46,409 bases of DNA from Patescibacteria group bacterium. Its GTDB lineage: Bacteria > Patescibacteriota > Minisyncoccia > UBA6257 > JAKLIH01. The notes below the pieces were generated by a model. The model was not told where the DNA came from. It saw only the letters and a list, made by a program, of their open reading frames with translations, and searched no databases. Position numbers and translations under genes: made by a program. The first letter of the stretch is position 1. Each line of letters opens with the position of its first letter. The stretch spans positions 1 through 46,409 of the forward strand of contig JAKLIH010000006.1 of NCBI GenBank assembly GCA_022709715.1, given 5' to 3'. Below, in pieces: positions 18,635 through 46,409 of this stretch.

Positions 18635-18667
18635 CAATCCCAACGGTACCTGGTACCGTTGGGATTG
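18635..18667. repeat. AACGGTACC palindrome (copy E) after recG
   Basis: CAATCCCAACGGTACC, central T, complement. It lies 20 bases beyond the recG stop without the second GC-rich hairpin, again in a terminator-like position. Confidence 0.8.
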
Positions 18668-18686
18668 AAATTTTGGATTTAATACT

Positions 18687-21359
18687 CTACTCCATATGAA
18701 GCTTACCAACAAATTCTTTATATTTTTGTAAAAACAATGGGTGTTTTTTAAAATCTGGATCGGTTGCAAAAAGAAGCTTGGCTTCATTTTGGATATTTTT
18801 AAGTAACTTTGAATCTTTTATGGCCGTCATGGCTAAATCCGGAAAACCCGATTGGTTTTTTCCGAACATTTCTCCGGGGCCTCGTAGTTTTAAATCAATT
18901 TCAGCTAATTTAAAACCATCATGGCAATCCACCATGGCTTCTAGTCGTTCTTTGGTAGTTCGGCTATTCGATTCAGTATATAGAAAACAATATGATTGAT
19001 AAACACCCCGGCCAACTCGTCCTCTAAACTGATGAAGCTGAGCCAGACCAAAACTTTCCGTGCCCATAATTAACATTACGGAAGCATTGGGCACATCCAC
19101 TCCCACTTCAATAACTGAAGTTGAAACTAAAATGTTAATATCGTTATTATAAAATTTTTTCATAATCAATTCCTTGTCTTTGGATTTCATTTTGCCATGA
19201 AGCATTTCAATTTTAAATTCTGGAAAAATTTTTTTCATCTTTTCTACTTCTTTTTTGACAGCTTTAACTTCGTAATTTAAAAGCTGATCAAAAGAAAATA
19301 GATTTTTTACTTTTTTGGTACCATCTTCATTGGCTTGAACGCTCTCTTCAATTCTCGGGCAAATTACAAAAACTTGGCGACCATTATTGATCTCCTTACG
19401 AATAAACTCAAACATTGGTTTTTCTTTAATTTTAGGAACAATTTTAGTAATAATAGTTTTGCGATTTTTTGGCATTTCATCTAAAATGGATAAATCTAAA
19501 TCACCATAGATTGAAAGAGCTAAGGTGCGAGGAATGGGTGTGGCGGTCATGGATAAAAAATGTGGAAGCAATACGCTATCCAAACAATCCGAACAATCCG
19601 AATGACCCGAATATTCGGAATTTAAAATTCTTTTTGGTTTTAAATATTTTTGTGTAAAATTGACTAACAATCCTAATTCTATGTTTTTTACTTTTAAATA
19701 TCTTAAAATTTGACTATAATCATTTTTCTCAATATATGGTTTTGTTTTTAATTCAACTATAATTTTATTTTCAATTATAAAATCAGCAAAATTTGATTTG
19801 ATGTTTGCTATTTCAATCGGCACTTCCCTTTGAAAATTAATATTATTTTCTTTTAATTTTTTGGCTAATAAATCACCATATTGCCTTTCACGACAAAATC
19901 TACCTATTTCATCGTGAATTTTAAATAATATGCCATTAATTTTATATGATAAATCTTTTTCTAAAATTTTATTTTTATTGTTATTGTTTGTTTTTTCTTC
20001 GGATAGTTCGGCTTGGCCCCCACCCCAACCTATGGTTGGTGTGGGGGATGAGTTCGGATTGTTGGGATCGTATAAATTATTAGATTTTTGTAACAATTCT
20101 TTGCGCTGCTTAATACCAAAACGATGTTGTTCATCGATGATGACTAGTCCTAAATTTTTAAAATCAATATTTTTTTGGATTAAAGCATGGGTACCAACCA
20201 CCAGTCACTCGGTACCATCGCCAATACTTTTTAATAAATATTCTTTGGTGACCTTGCCTTCAATAAAACCATCTTTAATTTGAACACCATCACCAGTCAT
20301 TAGGGCAATTTTTATTTTAAATGGTTCTAAATATTTTATAATACTTTGATAGTGTTGCTTGGCCAAAACTTCGGTGGGCGCCATAAAAGCCACTTGATAA
20401 CCTTGTTTTATACATAATAAAGCTACCGATACCGCCACAATAGTTTTACCTGAGCCCACGTCACCTTCTAACAACCGATTCATTGGAGAACCAGTTTCTA
20501 TATCTTTCATGACATCTCAAATAGCTTTCTTTTGAGAATTAGTTAAAATAAAAGGTAAAGTTGATAAAAATTCTTTGATTAAATTGATATCGGATTTAAT
20601 CTTTGGCGCTTTGTTTTTGGACATTTTATCTTTGATCCGAAGTAAGTGCAATTGAGTGAGTAACATTTCTTCAAACACAAATCGATTTTTGGCATCAATA
20701 GCTTCGTCATTATTTTTTGGAAAATGAATTTTATTTAAAGCGTCTTCTAGATTAAACAACTTGTTTCGTTTTTTAGTTTCTTCGGGCAAATAATCAATAA
20801 ATTGTTTTTGAAAACTATCCAGCAAACGTTTGATATAGGTGCGAAGCATTTTCGAACTAACACCACTAGTTTCGGGATAAACCGGGATCAATCGACCAGT
20901 GTGTTTAAGATTAGCAATATCAACTTCTTCATCATCTTTATTTTGAGATATAATTTCAAAAGCTGGACTTTGAAACACAAAATGTTTGCCTTTAGCTTTG
21001 GGTTTACCAGATACAGTAATAAGCGATCCATTTTTGATTTGGTTAGAAATGAAAGGTTGATTAAACCAAACTAAATCCGCTGAAGCAGTTTCATCAACAA
21101 TTTTGGCTTCAGTTAAAAGCATGCGTCTGCGATAGGTACGATAACTTCTAATTTTTTCAACATGACCGATAATTGTGGATGGAACATCAAGTTCTAATTC
21201 ATTGATAGGTTTGATATTAGTAAAATCTTGATAACGAAAAGGAAAATGCCATAATAAATCTTTAATGACAAAAATATTTAAGTTTTTTAATTTGTCTTGA
21301 TAATATTTACCAACACCATAAAGGTTTTCAATACTATCAGTGAGTCTAATATCTGACAT
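18687..21359 (-). CDS. recG: ATP-dependent DNA helicase RecG with inserted GxxExxY nuclease domain
   Basis: ATG 21359 to TAG 18687 is one frame of 890 residues; TGA at 20517-20519 (KAIWDVM) and 20205-20207 (TEWLVVGTH) are Trp. The N-terminal wedge/OB domain (1-270) precedes the helicase domains, with Walker A GDVGSGKT (299-306), DEQH (409-412), SMTATP (about 604), and C-terminal RGRVGRG. Family members are usually near 690 residues. The excess is about 170 residues between motif II and motif III, holding a repeat-derived peptide and a PDDEXK-like GxxExxY domain (E-x-x-Y, then NFADF and VELKTK). RecG regresses stalled forks and branch-migrates Holliday junctions. There is no clear Shine-Dalgarno. 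Confidence 0.93.
19565..20081 (-). mobile_element. In-frame insertion inside recG: palindrome plus GxxExxY domain
   Basis: The insert covers roughly residues 427-599 of the RecG product. It opens with a peptide encoded by the repeat at 20015-20047 (PTPTIGWGGGQAELSE), continues with the GxxExxY domain (about 19628-19958: GRFCRERQYGDLL, NFADFIIENK, IVELKTK), and ends in SGHSDCSDC encoded by CCGAACAATCCGAATGACCC-type units. GxxExxY proteins are normally free-standing genes. The frame is open on both sides, so the insertion is tolerated or removed after translation. Boundaries are estimated from RecG motif spacing. Confidence 0.75.
20015..20047. repeat. GGTTGGTGTGGGGG palindrome inside the recG coding sequence
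   Basis: CCCCCACCCCAACC-TAT-GGTTGGTGTGGGGG, in-frame in recG and flanked by TTCGGA units. The same unit lies in the pilin gene at 41731-41770 in the opposite orientation relative to the coding strand. Confidence 0.8.
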
Positions 21360-40499: not shown

Positions 40500-41828
40500 T
40501 TATTGATATTTTTCTTTTGTTTTGTTATATATTTCTGATATTTCATTAACGCTTAAAGCTCGATTATATATACGGATATCGTCAAGATAGCCTTTTATTC
40601 CGTATCCTCCAGCATTAAAATCTCCTAAATATTTTGCTCTTAAACTATCTGGAAATAACATAGTATTAGCAGTAGTAAAGGTATAAAGTAAAATTCCGTT
40701 TCTATAAGATTTTACAGTTTTATTATTATAATCTGCGACAACAGTTATTAATACTCATTGATTATTATAATTTAGAAAGATATCACCTATAGATGCATCT
40801 AAATTACTTGTGCCTGTAGCATAACGAAAATATAGACCATTGCTAGTATTTCTAAATAAAAATATATATCCTATAATAGATTGTGAATTATTATCTCCAA
40901 TGATTGTTTGTACAAAACTCTGGCTCGTACAATTCACCCAAGCAGATATGCTCAATACTCCAGTTTGATTAGATATAGAAAAGGCATTTGTAACTACACG
41001 ATCATCATCTCTATCGAAATAAAGATTTCTCTCATTGTAACTAGTAGTAGTTTGGGTTGCTCCATTTATAGTACCATTGTATCCATGTCCAGAATAATCA
41101 TAGGCAGTATTTCCTGATGTTTCATCAAATTTTCAATGACCAACTAAGTTAGTATCTCGGGACAATGGTGTAGATCAGGTTCGGTTAGGACTACCTACAG
41201 TAAAGGCTCCAGTGAGTGAATCATCATCATTGATGGAGTTAGTATTGGGATTCTTAAGTAGAGCTGTAACTTCATAGGATCCACCGGAATAGTAGGTATA
41301 GAAGTAAGTAGTATCATTCACTGGATCAATAGGAAGGATGGGTATATAGCTATTACCATTAGCAATTGAAAAATCAATAGGGATTCAACCATTGGAATCA
41401 GTTTTACGATAGTTATCTATTGTTTTACAACTATAGGTATAACCAGTGGGTAATACTGGAAGAGTGTAGGATGAACAGGTACTGCTTGTATCAGGGAGTG
41501 ATATATATACAGTTGTAGTTGATCCATAAGCTATACCATCGGTATTTCAGGTTTCAATGAAATTGATAGCTCTATTTATGGTATTAATATCACTTACTCT
41601 TCTAGTATCTCTGAAATTATCAAAAAGTCGAGCTGGATTTAATGCAAAAATTACAATAGCTGAAAGGATTGCAAGAATTGCGATGACTATCATGAGTTCA
41701 ACAAGCGTGAAGCTCTTTTTGCTATTACTACTAGCCCCCACACCAACCATAGGTTGGGGTGGGGGCCAAGCCGAATTATCCGAAGGAGTTTTAATACTAA
41801 ATTTATTTTTATAATTTGTATTTTGCAT
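40500..41828 (-). CDS. Type IV pilin-like protein with C-terminal LamG domain (UGA-Trp; palindrome in the leader)
   Basis: ATG 41828 to TAA 40500 gives 442 residues through TGA codons (IETWNTDG, NGWIPID, RTWSTPL, HWKFDE, NNQWVLI). The prepilin signal KKSFTLVELMIVIAILAILS is typical, but the residue before the cleavage site is Ser, not Gly. The leader peptide is stretched by about 16 residues encoded by the palindrome at 41731-41770 (AWPPPQPMVGVGAS). After the pilin helix and NPARLFDNFRDTRR, a concanavalin-like LamG domain spans about 230-440 (VGHWKFDETSGNTAYDYSG). It is probably a surface adhesin or minor pilin. Confidence 0.85.
41731..41770. repeat. GGTTGGGGTGGGGG palindrome inside the pilin leader
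   Basis: CTAGCCCCCACACCAACC-ATA-GGTTGGGGTGGGGGCC, in frame with the pilin gene and continued by AAGCCGAATTATCCGAAGG. It is the same unit as at 20015 in recG. Confidence 0.8.
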
Positions 41829-43746: not shown

Positions 43747-45867
43747 CTACAACTTTTCAATCATTAAAAGATTTTTTCGGTTAGGCAGTAGGCTTCAAAT
43801 GTATTCAGTTACAAAAGGAATGAATGGATGAAGCATACGCAAATTATTCTCAAGAATTTTAAGTAAAGTCGCTTGGGCTTGATCTTTGTTTTTGTTGTCT
43901 TTAATGTCCTGTTTCAAATCTTCAATAATTTTATCAGCAAAAGTAAACCAAAAATATTTATATAGTAGAGTGCTAGCGCCGGTTAAGTTTAATTTATCGA
44001 AACATTTTTTATATTTAGCAACCAAATCGTTGTTATTTTCAATATATTTTTTATATTTTGACTCCAATTTAACTTCACTATCAAAATCAAAATCAGATAA
44101 ATTCATTAAAACAAATTTTGATGCGTTTCAAACTTTATTAACAAAATTACGAGCACCGATTACTTTATCATCAGAAAAAGCTAAATCATCGCCGATTTTT
44201 GTGCCATAGAGCATGGATCAACGTAAAACATCGGCACCGTATTGATCGCAAACCGTTATTGGGTCAATTGAATTACCTTTTGATTTTGACATTTTTTGAT
44301 GATGTTTATCGCGAACTAAGCCATGGAATAAAACTTTTTTAAAAGGAATTTTTTTAGTTTTATATAAACTCATCATAATCATACGAGCCACTCAGAAAAA
44401 TATAATATCATAAGCTGTTTCCATAACGCTAGTTGGAAAATAGGTTTCAAAATCTTTTTCTTTATTAGCTAGTAGTGTGGCAAATGGCCATTGGCTGGAA
44501 GAAAATCAAGTATCAAAAACATCATTGTCTTGTTTTCAGCCTTCCCCCGGACAATCCTTTTGAATTTTAATATCACCATCTTTAAATCAAGCCGGAATTG
44601 GAATGCCTCAGTATATTTGTCTTGAAATATTTCAATCTTTTAATTCTTTCATTCAATGAAAAAATATTTTTTCAAAACGCTTGGGGACAAATTGAACTTC
44701 TCCGGTTTTAACAGCATCCACAGCTAAATCTCTTAAAGATTTCTTAGTATTATTGATTGGTTTGGTCATAGCTACAAATCATTGAGGTATAATTAGTGGT
44801 TCAATTGGCGTATTGCATTTATAACAAACCGATACATTATGTTTATAAGGTTCCTGTTTAATAAAAGTTTTGTTTTCAGTCATAATTTTTATAGATTCTT
44901 CTCTGGCCATTTTGGGTTTAAGACCAGCGAGTGGCCCAGCATTTTCATTTAATTTACCATCCAGATCAATAATTGGTAAAAATCCTAAATCATGTTTCTT
45001 ACCAATTTCAAAATCAGTAGCATCATGATTAGGTGTTACTTTTAAAGCACCAGTTCCAAATTCAATATCAACACTATCATCCCCGATGACCGGAATTAAA
45101 CGTTTGGTAATTGGTTCAATGACTTTTTTACCAATCCAAGCTAAATATCTTTTGTCTTTTGGATTAACAGCCACGGCCAAATCGCCAGGAATGGTTTCGG
45201 GACGAGTGGTAGCCACAGTTAAAAAATCATCACTAGCAGAATCTTGATATTTAATATAATAAAGAAAACCATCTTCTTCTATATATTGGGTTTCTAAATC
45301 CGATAGAGCGGTTCGATGTTTAGGACAATAATTTACAATGCGACTGCCACGATAAATCAAACCATCGTCATACATTTTTTTAAAAGTATCATAAACAGTA
45401 TCAATAATTTTAGGATCAAGCGTAAAAGTTTCCCTGGATCAATCACATGAACCACCCAGACGTTTGACTTGTGCGTTCATATGCTTTTTGTTGGCTTGAG
45501 TAAAATTTCAAACTTCATTGTAAAAATCTTCACGTTCCATTTGAAAACGAGATTTGCCTTCTTTTTCTAATTTCTTTTCATAAACCACTTGGGTTTCAAA
45601 ACCAGCATGATCTGACCCCGGAAGTCATAGGGTTTTCTTACCTTGCATACGTTGATAACGAATAATGGCATCTTCAATTGACATAACTAAACCATGACCA
45701 AGATGCAAACTACCATTGGCATTGGTTGGTGGCATAATAATACAAAAAGGTTCCTTATAATCTTTTGGCAAATTGTCGGGATTAAAAAAACCTGACTTTT
45801 CTCAAGTTTCATAAATACTTCCTTCTACATTTTTGTGATCATAAGCTTTAGGTAAATCGTTTATCAT
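43747..45867 (-). CDS. valS: Valyl-tRNA synthetase (many UGA-Trp)
   Basis: ATG 45867 to TAG 43747 gives 706 residues. TGA encodes universally conserved Trp, including [20 protein letters not shown] and [14 protein letters not shown]. Class I signatures are NGSLHLGHG (HIGH) and [12 protein letters not shown] (KMSKS). The editing domain carries [17 protein letters not shown]. The C-terminal tRNA-binding coiled coil of larger ValRS is missing, as in many reduced genomes (usual length 860-950). This gene gives the clearest evidence for UGA=Trp. There is no Shine-Dalgarno. Confidence 0.96.
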
Positions 45868-46409
45868 ATGTATATGTTTATATATAGTAATATACCAAAA
45901 AAAGATATAAAAGTAAATAAAAGTTAAAGAGAAAAAACAATGGTAATACAATTGTAAAGCAATGGTAAGACCCACCACGACCAACCGGAGGTTGGTGTGG
46001 GCCTGCCTGCCGGTAGGCAGGGGCTAGCAGTAGCAAGACAATCGTAAAGAGAAAGGAAAAAATAGTAATTGGTAAGTAGTAAGTAGTAATATGAAGAGTA
46101 AAAAGTAATACAATGGAAAAACAATAGTAATACAGTGGTAAAACAATTGTAAAGAATAGTAAAGAGTAAATAAATAATTACCAATCGCTACTTGCCAATT
46201 ACTCTTTCTGTTTGAACATTGAAACTTGAAAAACCGCGTTAGCGGTTTAACATGGTCCAGCACCACTTTTAAAAGCGGCGATATACTCGTTTTTGTTACC
46301 AAAAGTTTTATTAAAAACTTTTGACAGAAATCTCGTAGCCCTAAGGAGAATCCACTAGTCCCCACATTAAGTTTGCTGTTAATGGGTTATGAGAAATTAA
46401 ACATTAATC
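45868..46409. repeat. Repeat-rich intergenic region at the right edge, no gene
   Basis: Degenerate ACAATGGTAA/TACAATTGTAAAG tandem units (45935-46150) surround a complete CCAACCGGAGGTTGG plus CCTGCCTGCCGGTAGGCAGG composite palindrome (45969-46028). Further right are AAACCGC/GCGGTTT (46233-46250) and AAAAGTTTT/AAAACTTTT hairpins, and one end of the 90 bp inverted-repeat family (about 46358). No supportable ORF. Confidence 0.6.

Follow-up and report, generated by a model that had tools for sequence, protein, structure and literature searches.

The window examined here is a 46,409-nucleotide stretch of contig JAKLIH010000006.1 from a Patescibacteria group bacterium, and it carries on its minus strand a recG gene, for the ATP-dependent DNA helicase RecG, with an in-frame insert (18687..21359). 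When read with TGA as Trp the gene is a single frame of 890 codons, in which the RecG N-terminal part (wedge/OB region, Walker A and motif II; 20076..21359, with DEQH at 20124..20135) and the RecG C-terminal part (helicase C and domain 3; 18687..19568, with motif III, SMTATP, at 19536..19553) lie on either side of the insert, all on the minus strand. RecG-family models among the Pfam and NCBIfam profiles matched either side of the insert, NF008168 and TIGR00643 scored 786 and 684 bits respectively, each above its cut-off, and the top PDB match of an AlphaFold2 model of the chimera was RecG itself (1gm5, E 8.9e-38).

The first-pass annotation had described both sides of RecG as remaining in frame. 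This is correct at these coordinates, but only if TGA encodes Trp, as translation with table 11 breaks the frame twice, at W281 (20517..20519, minus strand) and at W385 (20205..20207, minus strand). The same reading holds across the whole window, where several genes require it, including valS (43747..45984) with 15 TGA codons, and profile scoring found no release factor 2 above cut-off in G000 or in the sister species G002. By these two observations, TGA as Trp fits the window genome. Full-length release-factor genes numbered one in each of G000 and G002 compared to two in members of the order that use the standard code. A UGA-to-Trp change has already been published for the Patescibacteriota family JAKLIH01, order UBA6257 (PMC13092985), and the reassignment seen here is probably that one, the window genome being taken as a member of the same family.

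The insert lies between RecG helicase motifs II and III. There are 187 residues between DEQHRFG (residues 409-415) and SMTATP (603-608), close to the 190 originally estimated, whereas in sister genus G003, whose RecG is empty, about 20 lie there, with just VKQRKQLLTNDKLVPHLLSM at the insert position. By comparison with that empty protein the inserted element measures 507 bp, or 169 codons (19569..20075, minus strand), with ends accurate to a few codons. It consists of a left arm of CCGAAY-type repeats (GATCCCAACAATCCGAAC ... GCCGAACTATCCGAAG; 19995..20075, minus strand) that forms one half of a pair of inverted arms, a GxxExxY nuclease domain of the GRF subfamily (GRFCRERQYGD; 19626..19955, minus strand), and a right arm of inverted repeats of the CCGAAY-type set (TTCCGAATATTCGGGTCATTCGGATTGTTCGGATTGTTTGGATAG; 19569..19625, minus strand). 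The element and both its arms make up one frame without stop codons, and in a single-strand RNA fold (z -5.8) the arms pair together and place the nuclease ORF in the loop. The reading of the domain as a full GxxExxY domain with D...E-x-K residues was borne out by matches of residues 468-578 to PF13366 (82 bits, cut-off 22, 4.8e-23) and TIGR04256 (79 bits, cut-off 35, 2.7e-22), and by the presence of the PD-(D/E)XK residues D526 (19782..19784) and E536-L-K538 (19746..19754), also on the minus strand. This is the single GxxExxY copy in its own genome.

The AlphaFold2 model of the chimera is RecG-like and holds a confidently predicted nuclease domain (pLDDT 91-97) between two flanking linkers with pLDDT below 50; when the domain was modelled alone its pLDDT was 93.7. 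A sequence search against solved structures gave no match. Foldseek with the domain model returned SSO0001 (Cas4) as the best match, together with lambda exonuclease and a Hjc-type Holliday junction resolvase (E 4e-4 to 2e-2). These models assign the inserted domain to the PD-(D/E)XK nuclease fold and show it folding independently between disordered linkers.

Within the left arm is an interspersed palindrome, CCCCCACACCAACCATAGGTTGGGGTGGGGG (20017..20047, minus strand), from which it had been concluded that a repeat entered the gene. The palindrome itself is real, with 42 near-copies in the 0.9-Mb genome compared to 0 for the reversed control, and a longer unit of palindrome plus arm-like repeats recurs elsewhere. 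However, the palindrome is ruled out as the vehicle of entry, since the corresponding recG insert of sister species G002 (L131) lacks it, and it is therefore a later addition. The structural ends of the insert are the inverted arms of CCGAAY-type repeats, not the palindrome. Two other repeat sites in the window can be mentioned here. In a type II/IV pilin-like gene (40500..41828, minus strand), the palindrome and CCGAATTATCCGAA repeat also seen in the recG insert overlap the N-terminal coding region in frame (41743..41784). A second repeat, TCAATCCCAACGGTACCTGGTACCGTTGGGATTGA, is a near-perfect palindrome immediately downstream of recG (18636..18671), with a similar copy at about 7520.

One caveat is that every genome used is a draft MAG, and an assembly or binning artefact might be suspected for that reason. 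Almost no weight can be given to this explanation, as the architecture is common to independent MAGs of different families and habitats and both junctions are in frame inside single contigs. An independent MAG of the window's own genus (L131/L162) carries the same insert with a domain 85% identical, so the assembly error that had been named as one way to refute the insertion is very unlikely.

When the window was compared with G002 (dS ~1.2), dN/dS was 0.063 for the nuclease, 0.076 for the RecG N-terminal part, 0.051 for the C-terminal part and ~0.3 for the arms. The nuclease and RecG in the window genus are thus under the same purifying selection. Being common to the genus and selectively constrained in this way, the copy there is a stable resident rather than a fresh hit, and an old one since it is found in two species at this dS; the predicted nuclease is apparently functional. 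The nuclease is therefore retained, through either a need for it in homing or its use by the host. Host use would mean a stable functional fusion, in which the nuclease domain serves the host, for example as a helicase-nuclease for branched DNA, and is kept by host selection. Such a fusion would account for an insert present in each of the two species of the genus for which recG was recovered, for insert and host distances that match between G000 and G002, for the equal dN/dS of domain and host and for a predicted fold close to Holliday resolvases and exonucleases, and a benefit to the host would also agree with purifying selection on a copy passed down vertically. However, the same domain is found in proteins unconnected with DNA (LepA, the RseP protease, GatB, pilins, a Cu-ATPase), same-genus relatives of the other filled genomes manage without it, one site can be occupied by differing nuclease subfamilies, and the arms are both weakly constrained and shared with intergenic repeats. 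We therefore consider a host-serving fusion unlikely. Homing as the origin is favoured by the occurrence of the same domain in many unrelated proteins, and local domestication in the window genus may have taken place as well.

GxxExxY was present in 84 of the 244 genomes of the order, and a search for in-frame copies inside host genes found about 50 of the listed matches, order-wide, within frames of 230-935 aa. This search picked long in-frame hosts, so the bias towards in-frame copies is itself partly survivorship. Two genes dominate. The recG copies in the order comprise 16 at the motif II-III loop, the window counted, and 1 in the wedge/OB region; those in lepA comprise 12 at the hairpin preceding DTPGH and 1 elsewhere. 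Further hosts are rseP (3 copies, one shared place), gatB (2, differing places), a copper ATPase (2), the C-terminal part of a transketolase (2), glycosyltransferases, an NADH dehydrogenase-like protein, an O-antigen ligase-like protein and pilin-like N-termini, which brings the unrelated host genes to at least a dozen; names other than recG and lepA were assigned by reading the sequences. In a single glycosyltransferase gene (L117/L166, G069:C10:110800-118200) three elements lie in frame, one of GRF type, one of GLG type and one a mini-element without nuclease. Outside the order, three family f84 genera have the same lepA site occupied, and G450 the same recG site. A GTDB scan for the window's GRF subfamily gave 80 loci, nearly all in Patescibacteria, with 18 embedded or fused and 62 stand-alone, and embedding is therefore one lifestyle of this subfamily and not the sole one. 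One of the embedded copies lies in recG immediately behind Walker A (L164).

Some loci depart from the simple arrangement. At L183, L226, L165, L198 and similar loci the GxxExxY ORF runs on through the right arm and enters the following gene, so that it is fused to the N-termini of archease-like, RuvX-like and pilin-like proteins. The right arm of the lepA insert in G039 (L105) has grown as tandem SPQLSAS repeats, which suggests that arms can expand in frame by repeat slippage. The four-helix-bundle proteins of TIGR02436, the 23S IVS family, were considered as an equally embedded family and this was ruled out, as they are mostly stand-alone in the order; they are sometimes found in long frames (G043:C14:21712-22029, 1148 aa; G052:C4:227573-227893, 430 aa), which is possibly a parallel case.

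Comparison of recG and lepA between related genomes found filled and empty sites within the same genera; the window's own genus shares the recG insert. For recG, G094 is filled and G093 and G095 are empty; the same contrast was seen for G225 vs G029, G027 vs G192 and G193, G230 vs G229, and G195 and G196 vs G194, the recG frame of the last (genus g137) having the empty length. For lepA it was seen for G046 vs G024, G047, G048 and G049, and for G017 vs G148 and G149. Judged from frame length, recG is filled in about 17 of the 223 recG-bearing genomes of the order. Of the marks of a classical transposon or IS (terminal inverted repeats, target-site duplication, a known transposase), inverted arms are present, and comparison of filled and empty sites defined no exact ends and no target-site duplication; lepA and recG copies have junction palindromes instead.

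Sites are also reused. The recG loop (site A) hosts both nuclease subfamilies, GRF and GLG, and within genus g137 the recG sites of G195 and G196 carry different ones. At the lepA site, insert and host distances are uncorrelated (Mantel r -0.06); the inserts of G039 and G215 are 89% identical and their LepA hosts 60% identical. Insert and host distances at the recG site are partly correlated (r 0.45), so that some recG copies are vertically inherited and the site holds a mix of descent and transfer. The presence of empty sites in the same genera, of two subfamilies at the recG site and of unrelated insert and host trees at lepA shows, at the level of sequence comparison, that the elements are mobile and reuse sites, and supports horizontal, site-preferring movement. 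The earlier proposal that a mobile gene invaded a surface loop of an essential helicase, a protein-level parasite, is well supported by these empty sites, by the recurrent independent insertions at the same site and by the copies in many other genes.

The arms differ between the two subfamilies. GLG-clade arms have CGCRGA-type repeats (144 vs 6 in the reversed control), none of which were found in the GRF clade of the order, and GRF-clade arms have HCGAA/CGAA-type repeats (46 vs 7 in the reversed control, and 270 vs 31 at the GTDB loci). As judged from these counts, arm repeat type goes with nuclease subfamily. Nuclease-less mini-elements with the arms of full elements were found in frame in LepA, RecG, the copper ATPase and others. 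There were 18 such arm pairs compared to 0 in the reversed arrangement, and 11 of the 18 lie within an open frame, some of them overlapping or representing both strands of one site. The lepA mini-elements of G192 and G219 are at the exact sites of full elements in other genomes. Mini-elements that are this frequent and that share sites with full elements would be expected if the arm-type repeats spread in frame like Rickettsia palindromic elements, with nuclease genes as mere passengers inserted into the repeats and now decaying; the lepA inserts of family f84, in which the right arm is strongly reduced or lost, would also agree with this. However, the arm repeat type sorts with the nuclease subfamily, and the catalytic D..ExK is intact in 48 of 50 embedded copies, the exceptions being L112, which lacks the Asp, and L130, with a one-residue change in spacing. 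Together with the purifying selection in the window pair, this makes a hitch-hiking nuclease very improbable.

GLG-type copies show a further feature, junction palindromes with arms of 8-12 bp, on both sides in lepA (L093, L094, L096, L100, L111, L121, L123, L277) and on the left side in recG (L103, L107, L110, L125). In these the end of the element repeats the adjacent host codons in inverted form and covaries with them between genomes. No junction palindrome was found at empty sites or in copies of GRF type, among them the window insert, and the idea that every copy has such palindromes was ruled out, as they are strong solely in the GLG-type lepA and recG copies. Our guess is that they come from a repair or hairpin intermediate at insertion.

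Such junctions, together with the RNA fold that pairs both arms, could also be read as signs that the element is removed from the RNA or bypassed by the ribosome, the stem of the arms joining the host ends in the manner of 23S rRNA intervening sequences or of bypass elements. The layout of a terminal stem and a small ORF is alike in the 23S intervening sequences (PMC4990558). However, the frame is open through all embedded copies used, with nuclease and arms free of stops, and a Met near the domain is missing from more than half of the embedded copies, compared to its presence in 11 of 12 stand-alone genes. An mRNA cut by RNase III would also not be religated, and an Rfam intron search gave no match in the window recG or at five other loci. 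Removal or bypass at the RNA level is therefore quite improbable. Protein splicing fares no better: the HN[CST] motif was found in 0 of 48 embedded copies and no intein or Hint match was among the Pfam and NCBIfam hits reported. In the absence of a splice motif or an Rfam family match, both the intein and the group I/II intron readings were ruled out.

The explanation we favour, with a probability of about 0.68, is that the window insert is a resident copy of a mobile, homing-like family that undergoes no splicing and becomes a translated domain of its host protein; sequence comparisons show its mobility and its reuse of sites, and cleavage, homing and host effect would follow from the model below. 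The full element consists of a GxxExxY PD-(D/E)XK nuclease gene with an inverted arm of short repeats on each side. On landing in an exposed loop it would give a single chain of host N-terminal part, flexible linker, nuclease, flexible linker and host C-terminal part, and with splicing absent it would stay in the protein. The nuclease may recognise the arm repeats, the unoccupied site or both and then cut, after which the element would be copied in by repair of the break (homing), and mini-elements would be mobilised in trans. The frame would be preserved because arrivals persist only if they are in frame and in a loop that tolerates them. For inteins, conserved sites have been argued to be favoured since imprecise deletion would damage the host. 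By analogy, a preference for fixed loops in conserved genes may arise here because imprecise deletion would harm the host, which would protect the element.

If this is true, a whole nuclease gene sits permanently in frame in RecG, LepA and others and recurs at the same sites across Patescibacteria, a number of whose RecG and LepA proteins would be chimeras, and the insertions reveal protein loops that tolerate entire extra domains. To our knowledge, mobile elements of coding genes have been thought either to require splicing, like introns and inteins, or to be short and gene-less, like Rickettsia palindromic elements (RPEs). No description of GxxExxY insertions in protein genes was found in the literature searched, which was mostly open-access. 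We tentatively suggest, at somewhat under even odds, that these elements form a new selfish class: homing elements embedded in proteins and free of splicing, with arrays of recognition repeats as their ends and a frame open throughout, which multiply by hiding as a translated domain of conserved proteins and whose trans-mobilised mini-elements would explain the in-frame palindromic repeats of bacteria.

The element can be compared with several known systems. The window domain is a clear member of the GxxExxY family (TIGR04256/PF13366), whose members mostly carry annotations as separate proteins with no assigned role. Like homing endonuclease elements, the present elements have repeatedly and horizontally filled one and the same site, which is empty in close relatives. 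Inteins likewise are in-frame, nuclease-bearing inserts at fixed conserved sites in important genes that enter empty alleles horizontally; however, the present element has inverted repeat arms, has neither splicing domain nor splice-junction residues, and apparently stays in the protein. The rRNA insertion sequences of CPR bacteria, more than half of them group I intron-like, carry LAGLIDADG homing endonucleases in rRNA genes (PMC11270868). They are site-specific homing elements from this bacterial radiation that identical sites have gained independently, but the elements described here are in protein genes, have another nuclease fold and gave no Rfam intron match. The 23S rRNA intervening sequences have terminal inverted repeats around a small ORF, a sporadic distribution and horizontal spread, whereas their ORF is of the S23p/four-helix-bundle type rather than a nuclease and RNase III excises them from the rRNA (PMC4990558). 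RPEs are short palindromic repeats that lie in frame in unrelated protein genes and are translated (review PMC10969869). In-frame insertion into unrelated ORFs is seen here as well and the mini-elements behave alike, but RPEs have no gene and measure ~100-150 bp, compared to 507 bp encoding a nuclease in the window, so only the mini-elements fit. The present element is a candidate mover for in-frame palindromic elements, whose mobility could therefore be tested using a single small enzyme whose target sites are known, and we class it as a combination of the RPE lifestyle and a homing-type nuclease.
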